Notes under the pieces: generated by a model
What the model saw: only the letters and a program-made list of their open reading frames with translations
Database searches by the model: none
Told to the model about the DNA's origin: nothing
Part shown: positions 29,085-36,666 of the stretch, one piece after another
Layout: each line of letters starts with the position of its first letter
Numbering within the stretch: position 1 is the first letter of the stretch
Assembly: GCA_903887375.1 (NCBI GenBank)
Contig: CAISPN010000022.1
Span: forward strand, 1-64,000
Length of the DNA stretch: 64,000 nt
Reading direction: 5' to 3'
Origin: an uncultured cyanobacterium
GTDB lineage: Bacteria; Cyanobacteriota; Cyanobacteriia; Cyanobacteriales; Microcystaceae
Translations under genes and position numbers: made by a program

Positions 29085-29270
29085 ATTATTTAAGTAAAAA
29101 AAGATTTTTCTATCTCGCAATCCTTGACTGGCCTAAAATTGCACCATGAGATTGACAAAAACATTGTAAGACTGTTAATTTAGTACCATAAAGCATATAA
29201 CGTAAGTACATATTTCAATGAAAAAATCAATATTCTTAGTAACAAATCTTTTAATTTCTTTAATAGAAGG

Positions 29271-30148: not shown

Positions 30149-32344
30149 ATGAAGTACTTTTTATCTGTTCTTCGTCTTGATTTGAGTAATCTAAGACTCA
30201 CCCAGGGAATCTTGGGGGGTATTGCTTTTGCTCTGCCTTTGTTAGTTGGTCAAATTACTGGATATTTGAGCCTCAGTATCTTGCCTTCCTTGGCTGCTTT
30301 TTTCATTTACCTTTTCCTTGGCAGCATCGCTAGCAGTTATCGAGATAAGTTCATGTCAATAGTAATTGCAACACTAGGATGCGCAGTTGCAATGGGGTTA
30401 GGAAGCATGAGTACTAATATTCCTTGGCTATTTATTTTTTTAACCTTCTTATTGGTGTGGAGCATAACCTTACTAAGTATTTATGGAAATATTGTAACTG
30501 CTATTGGACAACCGATTATTATCTTTTGGTTAATCTCGAATCACTTTCCTAGCAATCTGGAGATTGCAGCAGAGAGATTCTGGTTGATTTTGCTCTCTGG
30601 TATGTGGGGACTGCTCCTCTCCTTAACAGCATGGTTTTTAAATCCTTACAGACCTGTTAAGGAGGCGCTTATTACCAGCTACCGCAGCCTTACTAATTTT
30701 CTAGAAACTATCATACAAGCACAAATAGCTGATGACAATGGACAGTGGGAGGTAGTAACGTCTCAAGCTCAGTATAAAACTGGAGAGGCAATCGCCAAAA
30801 CTCGCGATCTGTGGAAACAGGTTCATAAGACTCAATTAATCTCTCAATCTCAAAGCGAATGGTTTCTCTTGCTGATTCAAGAGATAACTGAATTGTATCG
30901 GGAAATGATTGCTTTGACGCAATTGATTGTGACGTTAGGCAAGATGCCTCAGTTTGCTGAGATTCGACTTGATCTACAAGAGACACTCCAAGCTTTTAAA
31001 AAAGCTATTAAAACTCTTGATCAGGTTCTTCAGTTAAGGGATCTCGAAGATCGCCAAAAAGTTGCTAAAGAGACTAAAACAGCATTGACTACTATCAATC
31101 TAGAGATGCAGGACTTAACTAAGAAGTTATACCAGTGGAAGAATTCTCAGCACTCAATGGCGCTCCATCTACCGCAAATCCTCGACTCTCTGAAAAATCT
31201 GGTAAAGGAGGTTGATTATACGATTAATCTGCTTCTTGATCCAGGTCGGACAGTGAAAACTTCTCTAAAATCAGTTCCCTTTACTTCATCTACACCCTCT
31301 TTTTGGAAAACTTTGCAGAGTAACTGGACGTTTGAGTCTATTCCCTTTAATCATGCCCTGCGTCTGGCAACTGTCATCACTTTAACAATGTTACTAGAAC
31401 TTAGCCTACATTGGCAAAGAGGCTATTGGGCGGCTCTAACGGTTTTGTTTATCTTCAAACCAGATTATGGTGCAACTATACAGACTGTTGTACAACGTCT
31501 TATTGGAACGGTGTTTGGAGCGATCCTGACGACTGGTTTGGTTAAATACGTTCAAGACATCAGAATACTTCTGACAATTTTGATTGGTGTGGCTGCCCTT
31601 ACGATTGCGATCCGTTTTGTGAATTATGCTTTCTACGTCCTTCTGCTGACCATGATGATTTTAGTTATGCTTTACGCAGCTTTACCCAAGGCTGGGTTAC
31701 TGGCTGAGACAAGGGTCTTCCAAACCTTGGTTGGGGGAGTTGTGGCTATCATTAGTTACTATCTTTGGCCGATTTGGCAGAGGCGATCCCTTCCCCGACA
31801 ACTCACAATTTTGCTGCAATCAAGCTTAATTTATTTTCAAACGGTTGGAGCTGCTTATCAAGGACAAGAGCAAAGTACAAAAACACTGGACTTAAGTCGT
31901 CGTAAAGCCGAATTAGCCAATGCCAATGCTTTTGCTGCTGCCGAGCGAATGAGTAAGGAACCCAAGCGAGTTCAGGCGGATGTGGGAGAAACGATGGAGT
32001 TAATAATTAATGTAAGTAGTTTTATTAATGGAGTGACTAGCCTTGGACAAAGACTCAATGAATTTCGTCCATCTAAACCCATTTCTGGATTGGATCAGTT
32101 CATTAAACAGGTGAGCGACACATTACAGAATTTGATTGAGATTCAGCAAACGGGAGCCCATCTTTTACCACTGCCTGATTTTACTCAGAGCTTAGATTTA
32201 ACTGCGGATTATTTAAAAACTCTTCAAGAAAGTCAATCTAAAGAATTGCAGGCAGTGACTTTTATTATTGCCGAGCTGAATCACCTTGCGGATAAAGTCA
32301 AGGGAATGTATAGAGCGATCACTCATAATTATCTCCTCCCCTAG
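30149..32344 (+). CDS. FUSC-family membrane transporter-like protein
   Basis: A protein of about 731 residues with two membrane blocks separated by a long helical cytoplasmic region. The first (ILGGIAFALPLLVGQITGYL to about residue 165) and second (about 410-540; RGYWAALTVLFIFKPDYGAT and FGAILTTGLVKYVQDIRILL) show the duplicated FUSC/YccS/aromatic-acid-exporter layout. The coiled stretch between them is about 240 residues, and another helical tail follows the second block. Efflux of organic acids is the family guess. A TTG at 30125 would extend the start by eight residues; neither site has a clear Shine-Dalgarno. It is convergent to the DUF1254 gene. Confidence 0.8.
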   Translation: MKYFLSVLRLDLSNLRLTQGILGGIAFALPLLVGQITGYLSLSILPSLAAFFIYLFLGSIASSYRDKFMSIVIATLGCAVAMGLGSMSTNIPWLFIFLTFLLVWSITLLSIYGNIVTAIGQPIIIFWLISNHFPSNLEIAAERFWLILLSGMWGLLLSLTAWFLNPYRPVKEALITSYRSLTNFLETIIQAQIADDNGQWEVVTSQAQYKTGEAIAKTRDLWKQVHKTQLISQSQSEWFLLLIQEITELYREMIALTQLIVTLGKMPQFAEIRLDLQETLQAFKKAIKTLDQVLQLRDLEDRQKVAKETKTALTTINLEMQDLTKKLYQWKNSQHSMALHLPQILDSLKNLVKEVDYTINLLLDPGRTVKTSLKSVPFTSSTPSFWKTLQSNWTFESIPFNHALRLATVITLTMLLELSLHWQRGYWAALTVLFIFKPDYGATIQTVVQRLIGTVFGAILTTGLVKYVQDIRILLTILIGVAALTIAIRFVNYAFYVLLLTMMILVMLYAALPKAGLLAETRVFQTLVGGVVAIISYYLWPIWQRRSLPRQLTILLQSSLIYFQTVGAAYQGQEQSTKTLDLSRRKAELANANAFAAAERMSKEPKRVQADVGETMELIINVSSFINGVTSLGQRLNEFRPSKPISGLDQFIKQVSDTLQNLIEIQQTGAHLLPLPDFTQSLDLTADYLKTLQESQSKELQAVTFIIAELNHLADKVKGMYRAITHNYLLP

Positions 32345-32395
32345 AGGGAAGCGAGATAAAATTGAACTGCCCAATTCAGGAGCAGTTCCTCAAAA

Positions 32396-33949
32396 TTATG
32401 GTTGAAGTTCGATCTCTCCCGGACGCCAGGTCTTGTTGAACCAAGGCTCCAATGGACCATAAAGGCGCAGTATCATGAACCAGCCCTTGCCTGGAATTGT
32501 CTGCACCCAATTATTCTTCATGCCAGACGGGGCTTTTGGTCCGAACCAAATGTCTGCTGAGCCATCGGCATTGGCTTTGAAGCCCTTGTCTTGGCTGCTC
32601 ACACTGGGCGCTTTTTGGTTGGTCTGTAGCATTGAGCGCGTCTGGTTATCATAGACGATTACCGACCAGAAGTCCTTCACTGGGATGTTTGGTGGCAAGT
32701 GCAGCTTGTATGTTTTACCACCATCAAAGGGGTTGCCCTTCGAGTCTAGGGGCGACCATGGGTACTGTGAGCCTTTGCCGACTATTTTCTCTTCCATCGC
32801 TGGAGTCACACCAGTAGCGAAATAGTAGTAGAAAGCAGCTCCATCAAGATTATTGATGCCTGGGGCTACTTGAAATTTGTAGCCACCAAAAAACGGTAAG
32901 CGCCATGAGCTGTTTGGGTAGAAGAATGCTCCAGGCTCACGGATCTTGAAAGCTAGTGTTCGCGCTGTCACTGCACCAATATTGGCAGCGTCGGTCAGGA
33001 TCTTCTTCATTCGATCGTCAGGATTGAAGGGCTTGCCTTTGACGATACCAATCGAAGCGAACAGTCCAAGTGTAGTTGGGTCAGAACCCTCTGGCGGTTC
33101 TTCCTGGATTACTTGGTTTAGCAAAGTCCAGAACGAATAGTCACCTGGGGCAACAAAGTTCGTTGGCAAGCCTGAAGCATTGGCAAACTTGATAGGTGGC
33201 GGATTATTTGCCTCGGACAATTGATAGATCTTCAAGTGCTTCTTGACTGACTCAACTCCAGGCTCGGTTGCACCGTTAACGAGAAAAGATCTAAAGAACA
33301 TCCAGTTGCCGTAGGTTTTCGGACGTATGATGAAATAACCTTCTGGGATTTCGCCTTTGTAGCCTGGTGGAAGAATCAGATACTTGCCGCCCTCTCCTTT
33401 GTCGGCACCCGTGATGCCGATATCGGCCGCCCAGCGATACCAAAAGTCATTGATTGCTCCCAACACTTTGGGAGGAACTTCGACAACTAACGGACCTTTC
33501 TTTGTATCGATCCAAATGAAGCTATAAATTGTGTTGTCGTTAGCTGTTAGCTCCACGGTCTTGGGATCAACTAGGTTTTCCCAGATCACGTTGGTTTTGT
33601 TATCGGGTCCGAACTTGCGTAGCGAATCACGCATACCTGCCTGATTGACGATCGCAATGGCTAGTAGATAAGCCTGCAGAGCACGCGAGCGGTCAAGATT
33701 GTCATAGATTTTCTCAACGGTGTCAGGCAATGGAAAGCCATCGCTCAAGTTCAGTGTACCGATGGAGGTATCAAGCTGGTTGGGTATCGCAACCCCAGGC
33801 GGGATAGGGGTAGAATATTTAAAACTGTCTGGTTGCATTCTTTTCTCAATTGGTTGGGCTTGCACTTGGCTGATTGAATGACTGGCTAGTACAAGACTAA
33901 ACAATGTTGTGAGTGTAAGCAATTGTGTCTTAGTTTTCTTTATTGACAT
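32396..33949 (-). CDS. DUF1254/DUF1214 secreted protein
   Basis: A 517-residue protein with an N-terminal signal peptide (LLTLTTLFSLVLASHSISQV then QAQ). An N-terminal DUF1254 domain (about residues 60-200: EKIYDNLDRSRALQAYLLAI, VVEVPPKVLGAINDFWYRWA) is followed by a C-terminal DUF1214 domain (about 380-505: DFWSVIVYDNQTRSMLQTNQ, GWFMILRLYGPLEPWFNKTW). Function is unknown. The gene is noticeably GC-richer than its surroundings: the line 32401-32460 has 32 G+C of 60, against 21 of 60 at 29401-29460 in DUF1345. It is divergent from the sulfatase with a 182-base gap holding an inverted repeat. Horizontal acquisition is inferred. Confidence 0.85.
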   Translation of the reverse strand: MSIKKTKTQLLTLTTLFSLVLASHSISQVQAQPIEKRMQPDSFKYSTPIPPGVAIPNQLDTSIGTLNLSDGFPLPDTVEKIYDNLDRSRALQAYLLAIAIVNQAGMRDSLRKFGPDNKTNVIWENLVDPKTVELTANDNTIYSFIWIDTKKGPLVVEVPPKVLGAINDFWYRWAADIGITGADKGEGGKYLILPPGYKGEIPEGYFIIRPKTYGNWMFFRSFLVNGATEPGVESVKKHLKIYQLSEANNPPPIKFANASGLPTNFVAPGDYSFWTLLNQVIQEEPPEGSDPTTLGLFASIGIVKGKPFNPDDRMKKILTDAANIGAVTARTLAFKIREPGAFFYPNSSWRLPFFGGYKFQVAPGINNLDGAAFYYYFATGVTPAMEEKIVGKGSQYPWSPLDSKGNPFDGGKTYKLHLPPNIPVKDFWSVIVYDNQTRSMLQTNQKAPSVSSQDKGFKANADGSADIWFGPKAPSGMKNNWVQTIPGKGWFMILRLYGPLEPWFNKTWRPGEIELQP

Positions 33950-34006
33950 AATTCTCCTGTAAAGCTTTTGTTAAGCGCATCAACCTATATATGATAAGCA
34001 TGATAG

Positions 34007-34046
34007 ACTGTACGATGAATGAAAAATAGATTAAAACTGGTACAGT
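34007..34046. promoter_or_regulatory. Inverted repeat in the DUF1254/sulfatase divergent promoter region
   Basis: ACTGTAC (34007-34013) and GTACAGT (34040-34046) are perfect 7-base inverted copies separated by 26 bases, between two divergent start codons. This is a candidate operator for a regulator serving both genes. It is not a textbook NtcA or PhoB site, and the repeat alone does not prove regulation. Confidence 0.35.
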
Positions 34047-34131
34047 AGAAGTGTGCCTATTTGATCTTGAAAAAGTAGTTTTCCTTTGATAACTATACAA
34101 CCAAAACATTGTACTTAGTCATTTGCTATCT

Positions 34132-36666
34132 ATGTTAAAGCGACTGCTTTCTAAACTACTGGAACCATTCCAGCTTAGTATGCTATGCCTGTTGATATTG
34201 ATCGGGATTGGCATCGGTTTTGGTCCAGTAATTGCTCAACAAATCAACGGTACTCCTGGTTCACCCAGTGCCACGATATCTATTAATGGAAACCAATTAC
34301 CACCTCCTCCTGGAAAATTTGCTGGAGTGATCAAGCCCAGTGCTATGCAATCCAAACCCTATTGGCAACCGCGAGTTGTACCACCCAAGGGAGCACCTAA
34401 TGTTTTGTTGATCATGACCGATGATTCTGGTTTTGGTGTTCCCAGCACGTTTGGTGGAGTGATTCCCACTCCTACCCTTGATTGGGTTGCCCAAAACGGC
34501 TTGCGCTATACAAACTTCAATTCCACAGCGCTGTGTTCTCCCACCCGTGCCGCCTTGCTCACTGGACGCAATCACCATTCTGTAGGCTTTGGGGTAATCT
34601 CAGAACAATCTACAGGATTTCCTGGCTATGACTCGATTATCACCCGAGATAAAGCAACTATCGGCAGAATTCTAAAGGATAATGGTTACTGGACATCTTG
34701 GTTCGGCAAGGATCACAATGTTCCAGCTTTTCAATCAAGTCAGGCGGGTCCTTTTGATCAGTGGCCTAGTGGCATGGGTTTCGATTACTTTTATGGTTTT
34801 GTTGGTGGTGATGCAAACCAGTGGCAACCCAACCTGTTTCGTAATACAACTGCTATCTATCCCTACGTTGGCAACCCAAAATGGAATTTGATCACAGCTC
34901 AGGCGGATGACGCAATCCAACAAATGAGAAGAGTTCGCGCTGCGAATCCAGATCAACCACTTTTTGTTCATTTTGTACCTGGTGGTACTCATGCACCCCA
35001 CCACCCTACCCCAGAATGGATAGACAAGATTAGTAAACTGCATCTGTTTGACCAAGGGTGGAACAAATTACGTGAGCAAATTTTTGAAAAGCAGAAAAAG
35101 CTAGGGGTGATTCCTCAAGATGCCCAATTAACTCCATGGCCTAAGGATCTTCTAAAGGAATGGGACCAGCTTACTCCTGATGATAAAAAAATGTTCATTC
35201 GCCAGGCAGACGTTTTTGCTGCCTATACTGCCTATACCGATCACGAAATTGGTCGGGTAATTCAGGAATTAGATAAAATGGGTGAACTGGAAAACACCCT
35301 GATCGTCTATATTAACGGCGATAACGGCAGCAGCGCCGAAGGCACAATGGTGGGAACACCTAACGAAGTTGCTATTTTTAACGGGGTTGAGGTTTCCGTT
35401 GAAGATCAGCTTAAGTACTTTTATGATGCTTGGGGATCTGATAAAACTTATCCACATATGGCAATCGGCTGGGCTTGGGCTTTTGATACCCCCTTCTCTT
35501 GGACTAAGCAGGTTGCCTCACACTTTGGCGGAGTACGACAGGGAATGGCAATCTCTTGGCCTGCCCGTATCAAAGACAAAGGTGGCATCCGTAATCAATT
35601 CCACCACGTCATTGACATTTTGCCGACAATCCTAGAAGTCTCAGGTATCAGTCAGCCAGAGGTGGTAGATGGTATTCGACAGAGCCCGATTGAAGGGGTT
35701 AGTCTCGCTTACACTTTTGATAAGTCGAACACTAACACCCCATCAAAACATAAAACCCAATACTTTGAGATGTTTGGTGATCGTGCTCTGTACCATGATG
35801 GTTGGATTGCCAGCACTAAAGTTGTCCGTCCACCATGGCAGACGATTAAGCCAGCTCCTGCACCGCTTGAATATCCCTGGGAACTCTATAAAGTTACCAA
35901 AGACTGGACACAAAATGAGAATGTCGCTGACAAATATCCTGAAAAACTTAAGGAGTTGCAGAATCTCTTCCTACAGGAAGCGGAGAAATATCAAGTACTG
36001 CCACTGGACAATACGGTTTTTACCAGATTACTTGCCCCGCGTCCTAGCTTTGCTGCTGGTCGCAATGTGTTTACCTACTCTGGAGTAATCACTGGAACTC
36101 CTCATGGCGATGCACCCAACATTCTTGACTCGTCTTATAACTTTAAAGCCGATGTAGATATTCCCTCCCAGGGTGGTGATGGCATGATTGTTACTCAGGG
36201 TGGTCGCTTTGGTGGCTATGGCTTCTATATGTTGAAAGGCAAACCAGTCTTTGTCTGGAACCTGTTCAATCTTCAACGCATTCGCTGGGAAGGGACAGAG
36301 ACATTACCACCAGGCAAGCATACGCTGGAGTTCGACTTCCACTATGATGGTCTGGGCGCAGAAACATTAGCCTTCAATCAGCTCAGTGGTGTTGGGGCTA
36401 GTGGTACGGGCGTCTTAAAGGTGGACCAAAAGACCGTCGCAACTCAGAAAATGGATCACACTGTACCGTTTACTGTGGCATGGGACGAGAATTTTGATGT
36501 CGGCGCAGACACGATTACCTCGGTGGACGATAAAGACTATCAAATACCATTCCAATTCAATGGACAACTTAATAAACTGGTATTGACGATTGATCGACCG
36601 AAGCTATCACCTGCCGATATTAAAAAACTTGAGCAGAGTCAGCGCAATAATCGCGTCTCTGAGTAA
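34132..36666 (+). CDS. Formylglycine-type arylsulfatase
   Basis: An 844-residue sulfatase. The signal peptide comprises MLKRLLSKLL, a hydrophobic stretch and VIAQQ. The alkaline-phosphatase-fold catalytic domain starts at NVLLIMTDDSGFGVPSTFGG (metal-binding Asp pair). It carries CSPTRAALLTGRNHHSVGFG, in which Cys135 is the residue to be oxidised to formylglycine, and VYINGDNGSSAEG. The C-terminal about 220 residues (from YSGVITGTPHGDAPNI) are beta-rich and may bind ligand. The substrate, an alkyl or aryl sulfate or a sulfated sugar, cannot be told. No formylglycine-generating enzyme is in this window. A TTG three codons upstream is an alternative start. Divergent from the DUF1254 gene. Confidence 0.9.
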   Translation: MLKRLLSKLLEPFQLSMLCLLILIGIGIGFGPVIAQQINGTPGSPSATISINGNQLPPPPGKFAGVIKPSAMQSKPYWQPRVVPPKGAPNVLLIMTDDSGFGVPSTFGGVIPTPTLDWVAQNGLRYTNFNSTALCSPTRAALLTGRNHHSVGFGVISEQSTGFPGYDSIITRDKATIGRILKDNGYWTSWFGKDHNVPAFQSSQAGPFDQWPSGMGFDYFYGFVGGDANQWQPNLFRNTTAIYPYVGNPKWNLITAQADDAIQQMRRVRAANPDQPLFVHFVPGGTHAPHHPTPEWIDKISKLHLFDQGWNKLREQIFEKQKKLGVIPQDAQLTPWPKDLLKEWDQLTPDDKKMFIRQADVFAAYTAYTDHEIGRVIQELDKMGELENTLIVYINGDNGSSAEGTMVGTPNEVAIFNGVEVSVEDQLKYFYDAWGSDKTYPHMAIGWAWAFDTPFSWTKQVASHFGGVRQGMAISWPARIKDKGGIRNQFHHVIDILPTILEVSGISQPEVVDGIRQSPIEGVSLAYTFDKSNTNTPSKHKTQYFEMFGDRALYHDGWIASTKVVRPPWQTIKPAPAPLEYPWELYKVTKDWTQNENVADKYPEKLKELQNLFLQEAEKYQVLPLDNTVFTRLLAPRPSFAAGRNVFTYSGVITGTPHGDAPNILDSSYNFKADVDIPSQGGDGMIVTQGGRFGGYGFYMLKGKPVFVWNLFNLQRIRWEGTETLPPGKHTLEFDFHYDGLGAETLAFNQLSGVGASGTGVLKVDQKTVATQKMDHTVPFTVAWDENFDVGADTITSVDDKDYQIPFQFNGQLNKLVLTIDRPKLSPADIKKLEQSQRNNRVSE

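Follow-up and report, generated by a model that had tools for sequence, protein, structure and literature searches.

A DUF1254/DUF1214 gene and an S1 sulfatase gene stand back to back in the DNA of an uncultured cyanobacterium (64,000 nucleotides, the whole stretch analysed and hereafter the window). We lean, with modest confidence, towards reading this pair as the pared-down, locally assembled version of an extracytoplasmic module that is widely exchanged and processes sulfate esters, with the DUF1254 protein as an uncharacterised partner. The basis is threefold: a formylglycine (FGly) sulfatase with its catalytic residues, an adjoining DUF1254/DUF1214 protein of the VPA0735 fold, and a formylglycine-generating enzyme (FGE) encoded in the same genome. 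Both open reading frames, their strands, the gap between them, the length of the sulfatase and its CSPTR motif, all described in a sequence-only reading of the window, are confirmed on the sequence (Table 1).

Table 1. Coordinates of features in the window.
Feature	Position	Strand	Remarks
Remnant (first 15 codons) of a small secreted-protein gene of family c14, otherwise deleted	29218..29262	+	match in congener G004
DUF1254/DUF1214 (VPA0735-fold) gene	32396..33949	-	517 aa, hydrophobic N-terminal stretch; evidence from Pfam, PDB, AF2 and GC3
Divergent intergenic region	33950..34131		182 bases, 31.3% GC
Inverted repeat, 7 bp, ACTGTAC-N26-GTACAGT	34007..34046		probably chance
S1 FGly-type sulfatase gene	34132..36666	+	844 aa from ATG; evidence from PF00884, CSPTR and nearest structures

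The sulfatase, for which a TTG start at 34123 (847 aa) is also possible, matches PF00884 (Sulfatase) at 166.2 bits against a Pfam cut-off of 25; no NCBIfam equivalog reaches its cut-off for this protein. Its maturation signature (C/S-x-P-x-R) occupies residues 135-139, and it holds D97, D98, C135, R139, K193, H195, H287, D397, N398 and K459, which we take to be the catalytic residues (position 459 is R in two of the 17 rows of sulfatase alignment A2). The nearest solved structures, 7all and the arylsulfatase 4cxk/1hdh (presumably from Pseudomonas aeruginosa), have the sulfatase core and FGly site in common with it. However, they comprise 523-536 residues, whereas the window protein carries approximately 200 extra C-terminal residues that appear beta-rich in a low-confidence structure model (pLDDT only 59). 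The DUF1254 protein matches PF06863 (DUF1254, 95.6 bits) and PF06742 (DUF1214, 110.7 bits), both over the Pfam cut-off and in the expected order, as well as PDB 2p3y/3vb9 (E 4e-77). Its AF2 model (pLDDT 83.7) has the fold of VPA0735 from Vibrio parahaemolyticus (Z 43.4 to 3vb9, rmsd 2.4 over 454 residues), which is shared over most of its length at 34% identity; the VPA0735 entries (2p3y, 3vb9) are structural-genomics depositions with titles that give no function. Outside VPA0735, VPA0106 and 6ans, every match listed in the fold search has a Z below 6 (RetS sensor, adhesin, CBM-like sandwiches) and is given no weight, and a catalytic centre is not obvious from the conserved columns. Each N-terminus has a hydrophobic stretch (peak 15-residue Kyte-Doolittle means of 1.65 for the DUF1254 protein and 2.63 for the sulfatase), and both proteins are probably secreted.

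The sequence-only reading saw no FGE and concluded that activation must come from elsewhere. A search of the window's own genome found an FGE on another contig (G000:C44:1151-2056, 287.9 bits), which retains both catalytic cysteines, with GGSFLCAPSYCQRYR, and lies 40 bp from a second sulfatase: a genome devoid of maturase is thus ruled out, and "elsewhere" holds only in the sense of a different contig. In FGE and sulfatase gene pairs such as those of G000:C44, G084 and G299, a gap of roughly 10 to 100 bases separates the two genes; in the window, by contrast, the neighbour of the sulfatase is the DUF1254 gene. Among the loci of alignment A4 the type of maturase fits the type of sulfatase: all three Ser-type loci (L206, L207, L220) have an anSME over the TIGR03942 cut-off, and the 11 named Cys-type loci contain no member of the anSME-type radical-SAM cluster. 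Not every radical SAM neighbour is an anSME, an identity ruled out for L121 and L226 (best match GrrM/OscB). On the other side, FGE-like genes occur at only two of the 80 DUF1254 loci considered next (the best 80 of at least 576 confirmed).

The query that retrieved those 80 loci was an alignment built from 13 cyanobacterial DUF1254 proteins. Some flanks are short, and because open reading frames on the opposite strand mask DUF1254 at certain high-GC loci, tblastn matches were used to measure distances. An S1 sulfatase lies within 10 kb of DUF1254 at 24 of these best 80 of at least 576 loci (27 genes, many phyla), some of the 27 being distant paralogues of 26-35% identity. Sulfatases are densest in the first kilobase upstream of DUF1254 (10 genes, 136 per Mb, nine of them co-directional) and absent at 8-10 kb on either side; within the same best 80 the decay with distance is uneven, with four sulfatases 4-6 kb upstream and three at 6-8 kb downstream. 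Apart from further DUF1254 copies, the S1 sulfatase is also the commonest neighbouring family of this set (23 loci; the next real family reaches seven). Within cyanobacteria a sulfatase is present in 17 of 22 DUF1254-positive genomes and in 35 of 364 others, and it stands within 15 kb of DUF1254 in 15 of the 22 (counted by eye). The 386 genomes are even draws from the phylum, but the comparison is not phylogenetically independent, since 17 of the 22 positive genomes belong to one family, the window's genome is included, and the sulfatase matches extend to paralogues of 36-38% identity. In a comparison of 38 chosen loci, 13 of the 30 cyanobacterial genomes selected carry DUF1254, sulfatase and FGE together on a single stretch. 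Larger clusters of relatives also contain AraC-type regulators and outer-membrane channels, which in three relatives are of the FadL/TodX type.

The proximity of the two gene types in many unrelated bacteria suggests that DUF1254 works with sulfatases. The adjacency could alternatively be an accident of two separately mobile genes, the DUF1254 protein having nothing to do with sulfate esters. Consistent with this, 56 of the best 80 of at least 576 DUF1254 loci show no sulfatase in the flanks covered, some of them short, and the nearest relatives of the window's DUF1254 are mostly unlinked: the flanks covered for Defluviicoccus, G214 and the cyanobacterial MAG from LacPavin are free of sulfatases, and in Methylotetracoccus the one sulfatase in the flanks, 4.2 kb from DUF1254, is just 45-47% identical. 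Similarly, the same-clade sulfatases of G084, G049, G185 and G347 have no DUF1254 within the 19 kb fetched. In the literature searched (most subscription journals lie outside it) a DUF1254-sulfatase link was not found in print. However, an accident would account poorly for the over-representation of sulfatases just upstream of DUF1254, usually in its own orientation, for their top rank among neighbours across many phyla in the same best 80 loci, or for the recurrence of clusters with FGE or anSME, and we regard it as unlikely. The partnership is frequent, not obligatory; the suggestion that both proteins process one sulfated compound is plausible and backed by recurrent linkage, although unproven.

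Both genes depart from their same-family homologues, and horizontal transfer of both is therefore supported by the phylogenies: approximately unbiased (AU) tests reject a grouping with same-family homologues for DUF1254 (p 3e-53) and for the sulfatase (p 2e-7), and agreement with the species tree was not found. The horizontal origin proposed from the sequence is supported; the proposal that the pair arrived as a unit is not, because the nearest relatives differ. The closest grouping of DUF1254 is with Methylotetracoccus and Defluviicoccus (84-86%), and the sulfatase is nearest to sequences from another cyanobacterial family, Bradyrhizobium and Thiosymbion. AU tests also reject the two cross-groupings examined, one joining DUF1254 to Thiosymbion and B. 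guangdongense (p 2e-65) and the other joining the sulfatase to G214 (p 6e-43); the AU groups were chosen only once larger trees had been inspected. On these trees, the two genes were probably acquired along different routes. The careful trees used hand-picked rows (25 of 67 sulfatases, 30 of 123 DUF1254 proteins), and the 123-row DUF1254 tree is a FastTree tree with several long branches flagged. A six-row group of the quick sulfatase tree (SH-aLRT 97) does not recur as a starred set in the careful one (two rows, then 10), although both trees place the same rows nearest.

Entry of both genes together, from one donor and as a ready-made divergent unit, would fit their position outside the same-family groups, their high GC relative to the genome, and the divergent order, which is common to the window and the congener G004 and is seen again in L208. 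Yet the discordant trees with their strong AU rejections already disfavour it, and strong co-inheritance was not found among 19 chosen linked pairs, for which the identity matrices are weakly correlated (rho 0.13; 277 of 5000 permutations as high). The compositional signal is also unequal. GC is 48.1% in the DUF1254 gene, 46.0% in the sulfatase gene, 39.3% in the window and 29.8% in the DUF1345 gene, so that the contrast first drawn from sampled lines (53 against 35) was right in direction and wrong in its figures. Against 104 open reading frames of at least 300 aa, treated mechanically as genes and drawn from 238 kb of the 2.93-Mb genome, the GC3 of DUF1254 (51.8%; mean 32.6%, SD 5.1) ranks first, whereas that of the sulfatase (41.8%) has a z of 1.8 and falls at the 95th percentile. 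For 2-kb segments starting between 31501 and 34501 the tetranucleotide distance reaches the 94th-98th percentile; it is at the 91st for the start at 35001 and at the 18th for that at 36001. Of the pair, the sulfatase is the milder outlier. We consider joint entry improbable; a donor beyond the sampling that already held exactly this pair is possible.

The congener G004 has the divergent pair and also homologues of the DUF1345, FUSC and dehydrogenase genes that flank it in the window, which together rule out contamination of the contig. Positions 29105-29262 match the DNA of G004 at 85%; here the remnant of family c14 reads MKKSIFLVTNLLISL before its frame is broken. Intact c14 genes lie near the same pair in G004 and in the sulfatase clusters of G185 and G225; the family was recorded at loci L091, L132 and L133.

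The repeat between the genes, which had been put forward as a shared regulatory element, is present: its arms (34007-34013 and 34040-34046) are exact, it lies between both genes, and it is the sole site of its kind in the window. It is nevertheless probably due to chance, since dinucleotide shuffling of the 182 bases yields an equally good repeat (at least one of 7 bp, spacer up to 80) in 613 of 1000 cases (61%) and since it is absent from G004, which keeps the divergent pair but has lost the left arm and has ATGCAGT in place of the right one. At up to two mismatches the motif recurs at that spacing in eight of 100 shuffled windows, having been picked after it was seen. The right arm falls within a terminator-like stem-loop (34039-34057), a class of site nearly absent from shuffles of the region (mean 0.0, SD 0.2). 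However, G004 also lacks the stem pairs (alignment judged by eye), and the region contains one promoter-like site against 1.5 in shuffles. The shuffles and G004 speak against a shared operator, and we give very little credence to either the repeat or the stem-loop as a common control site.

Under the module reading favoured here, the FGE of C44 could convert Cys135 of the sulfatase to formylglycine; both proteins would be exported, and the sulfatase, acting beyond the cytoplasm, would split a sulfate ester into sulfate and the desulfated compound. The DUF1254 protein may bind, or further convert, either that ester or its product. The channels and AraC-type regulators of relatives hint weakly at a hydrophobic, gene-inducing substrate. 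The two genes would have come by separate phylogenetic routes, their adjacency being kept by selection for joint working. More tentatively, and with less confidence than we place in the reading of this locus, DUF1254/DUF1214 proteins may be dedicated partners of extracytoplasmic FGly sulfatases in general (a second enzyme on the desulfated product, or a substrate presenter), sulfatase and partner having moved between phyla many times and formed new pairs across lineages: the pairing would be conserved, the ancestry not.

S1 sulfatases in cyanobacteria have a precedent: sulfatase subfamily S1, perhaps of another clade than the one here, is reported from freshwater picocyanobacteria but not from marine ones (PMC9361551), in passages that mention neither DUF1254 nor FGE. 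For DUF1254/DUF1214, which has solved structures and no role assigned in the material seen, linkage with sulfatases offers a concrete, testable role, one that extends in part to the matching type of maturase (FGE or anSME). Cyanobacteria would thereby gain a candidate pathway for the use of organic sulfate esters.

The two divergent genes, which 182 bases separate, are real: Pfam confirms the DUF1254/DUF1214 and sulfatase domains proposed in the sequence-only reading. The DUF1254 protein matches VPA0735 of Vibrio parahaemolyticus (PDB 2p3y, 3vb9; E 4e-77), and its predicted structure (pLDDT 83.7) superposes on VPA0735 over 454 residues (Z 43.4, rmsd 2.4). No histidine or cysteine is invariant in an alignment of 30 DUF1254 rows, which is evidence against a His- or Cys-based centre; its role may be one of binding or acid/base chemistry. 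The sulfatase matches the arylsulfatases 7all and 4cxk/1hdh, and all ten catalytic positions examined are present, their roles being presumed, not computed.

Coordinates and members of the features discussed (G, sampled genomes; C, contigs; L, fetched loci; plain numbers, window positions)
Feature	Location	Strand	Remarks
DUF1254/DUF1214 gene	32396-33949	-	517 aa
Sulfatase gene	34132-36666	+	844 aa from ATG
Inverted repeat	ACTGTAC at 34007, GTACAGT at 34040		26 bases between arms
Terminator-like stem-loop	34039-34057		Between the divergent genes, upstream of sulfatase; includes right arm of repeat
c14 remnant	29105-29262		Only upstream DNA and first 15 codons; adjoins DUF1345
Formylglycine-generating enzyme (FGE)	C44:1151-2056		Better PF03781 match (287.9 bits); second sulfatase 40 bp away
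Genomes whose DUF1254, sulfatase and FGE share a stretch	G045, G047, G060, G182, G225, G227, G239, G259, G263, G299, G306, G322, G381
DUF2092 loci	L086, L087, L088, L097, L154, L170, L171, L186, L191, L206
c11, example	L132:11041-11610
Grr system, G299	L121:7886-10767
Grr system, G182	L122:7372-10439		By homology
Grr loci, Cyanobium and G014	L226:131-4090, L097:1740-2141
G042 sulfatase pieces	L089:9398-10280		Different frames

Linkage was surveyed across other bacteria in 80 named DUF1254 loci, the best 80 of 576. Within this set an S1 sulfatase lies at most 10 kb from DUF1254 in 24 loci, with 27 genes that include distant paralogues; the other 56 loci show no sulfatase nearby. Sulfatase density in the same best 80 peaks at 136 per Mb within 1 kb upstream of DUF1254, where nine of the ten genes are co-directional; it is 63 per Mb between 1 and 2 kb upstream and zero at 8-10 kb on either side. 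Four genes lie 4-6 kb upstream and three 6-8 kb downstream. Once extra DUF1254 copies are set aside (82 ORFs in 71 loci), the sulfatase ranks first among the neighbour families of these 80 (23 loci), ahead of AraC (7), c11 (6), and radical SAM, c4 and DUF2092 (5 each); one six-locus group consists, judged by position, of ORFs opposite DUF1254. FGE-like genes occur in just two of the 80 loci, and one locus each is divergent as in the window (L208) or convergent (L156). Among the nearest relatives of the window's DUF1254, most lack a linked sulfatase. Judged by gene neighbourhood, the partnership is frequent, not obligatory. Members of the c11 family (~190 aa, no Pfam match) lie repeatedly close to DUF1254 or a sulfatase, both in cyanobacteria and in Proteobacteria, and DUF2092 (PF09865, a predicted periplasmic protein) is a repeated DUF1254 neighbour.

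Of 386 cyanobacterial genomes, 22 contain DUF1254 (E at most 1e-60) and 52 the sulfatase, a count that includes paralogues and a broken copy in G042. Sulfatase is present in 17 of the 22 DUF1254-positive genomes, 17 of which come from one family and which include the window's own, vs 35 of the 364 others (Fisher p 2e-12). The two genes lie at most 15 kb apart in 15 of the 22 (counted by eye), and DUF1254, sulfatase and FGE share a single stretch in 13 of 30 genomes (a chosen set, 38 loci). In G084, G049, G185 and G347, the 19 kb fetched contain a same-clade sulfatase and no DUF1254. G299 has a Grr RiPP system (GrrA, GrrM, GrrP) placed between FGE/sulfatase and DUF1254, and so, by homology, does G182; one Cyanobium has GrrM and GrrP near DUF1254, and G014 a partial GrrM piece immediately upstream of it. 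Cyanobacteria of family f25 carry two to four consecutive DUF1254 genes (L101, L123-L127, L129-L131, L138, L139); most also encode an amine-oxidase-type flavoenzyme there, and some a transporter of the SBF (bile acid symporter) family.

The histories of the two genes were compared in sulfatase trees of 67 and, more carefully, 25 rows, and in DUF1254 trees of 123 (FastTree) and, more carefully, 30 rows. The window sulfatase groups first with that of the congener G004 (95% identity) and then, in the 67-row tree, with G185 and G225 (71%; different family, same order), Bradyrhizobium guangdongense and Ca. Thiosymbion (SH-aLRT 97); the 25-row tree has identical nearest rows, but its smallest starred group past G004 comprises ten. 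The window DUF1254 groups in both its trees (support 100/98 in the smaller) with Methylotetracoccus oryzae, Defluviicoccus, cyanobacterial G214 (other family, same class) and a cyanobacterial MAG, at 84-86% identity vs 50-63% to full-length same-family homologues beyond its genus. With groups picked after the larger trees had been seen, AU tests reject, for DUF1254, a grouping with Thiosymbion and B. guangdongense (p 2e-65) or with same-family rows (p 3e-53) and, for the sulfatase, one with G214 (p 6e-43) or with same-family rows (p 2e-7). For 19 selected pairs in which the genes are linked, the identities of DUF1254 and of the sulfatase show a weak correlation (rho 0.13, a value reached in 277 of 5000 permutations). 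Of the earlier proposal that the pair was acquired as a unit, a horizontal origin of both genes stands on these trees; a single unit does not on this evidence, given the discordant trees and AU rejections. This pairing recurs with partners of changing lineage.

Composition and congeners bear on the same question. GC is 48.1% in DUF1254, 46.0% in sulfatase, 39.3% in the window and 29.8% in DUF1345; in a 238-kb genome sample with 104 ORFs no shorter than 300 aa, GC3 of DUF1254 is highest (51.8%; mean 32.6%, SD 5.1) and that of sulfatase is at the 95th percentile. Tetranucleotide distance in 2-kb windows is at the 94th-98th percentile for starts 31501-34501 and at the 18th by 36001. The next-highest GC3 belongs to a second DUF1254 gene of this genome, on contig C87; the signal could therefore be in part a trait of the family and not of origin. 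G004 keeps the divergent order, with DUF1254 91% identical (294 residues); five genes near the window pair are 72-84% identical to G004, and the other two sulfatases of both genomes 88.5% and 90%, making the pair's contrast less striking. In the second congener, G005 (90% complete), neither gene has a close homologue. The small secreted-protein gene c14 lies near the G004 pair and in the G185 and G225 sulfatase clusters; a remnant persists in the window, so that the locus there represents a reduced and rearranged form. C-terminal DUF1254 pieces (68-92 residues, 67-74% identity) occur in same-family genomes G033, G023, G034, G026 and G049 (L045-L048, L058), a distribution that suggests repeated gain and decay. 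Only two adjoining pieces of the G042 sulfatase were found (residues 553-749, 78% identity; 750-847, 68%), its DUF1254 gene being an open frame on another contig.

The repeat between the genes was considered as a shared operator. No other 7-bp inverted repeat with a spacer of up to 80 occurs in the gap, but 613 of 1000 dinucleotide shuffles contain at least one, and in G004 the divergent pair is kept, but the left arm is absent and the right altered. The exact arrangement, a motif chosen after being seen, occurs with two mismatches allowed in 8 of 100 shuffled windows. We treat the repeat as probably due to chance and, on this evidence, do not read it as a shared operator. The terminator-like stem-loop that includes its right arm belongs to a class which shuffling the region almost never produces; by eye, the stem pairs are not conserved in G004.

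The sequence-only reading had seen no FGE and placed activation elsewhere. Two PF03781 matches lie in the same genome, and the FGE on contig C44 has two cysteines within GGSFLCAPSYCQRYR, presumably those with a role in FGE; the window sulfatase would therefore be activatable inside its own cell. Ser-type sulfatases make up three of 15 in the sulfatase alignment (L206, L207, L220), each with an anaerobic sulfatase maturase above the TIGR03942 cut-off; a fourth passing maturase is in L154, whose sulfatase is not part of the alignment. That radical-SAM cluster has no member in the 11 named Cys-type loci of the alignment. This match of maturase to sulfatase type supports the view that these loci encode working sulfatase systems.

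In the proposed mechanism, whose demonstrated parts are catalytic residues, FGE presence, fold and linkage, both proteins would be exported, the sulfatase would hydrolyse a sulfate ester outside the cytoplasm, and the DUF1254 protein would act on the same substrate or its product. Among the neighbours, FadL/TodX-type channels in L154, L170 and L220 (one cluster; the L170 copy identified individually) and AraC regulators that carry a ligand domain weakly suggest a hydrophobic inducing substrate. PMC9361551 describes S1 sulfatases in freshwater picocyanobacteria and none in marine strains, and PMC9723792 describes cyanobacterial sulfatases that are exported, as well as cycling of sulfated EPS in mats. 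A literature search, with most subscription journals outside it, found no paper naming both DUF1254 and sulfatase. The interest of the locus lies in the general DUF1254-sulfatase association, rather than in unit transfer or a shared operator.
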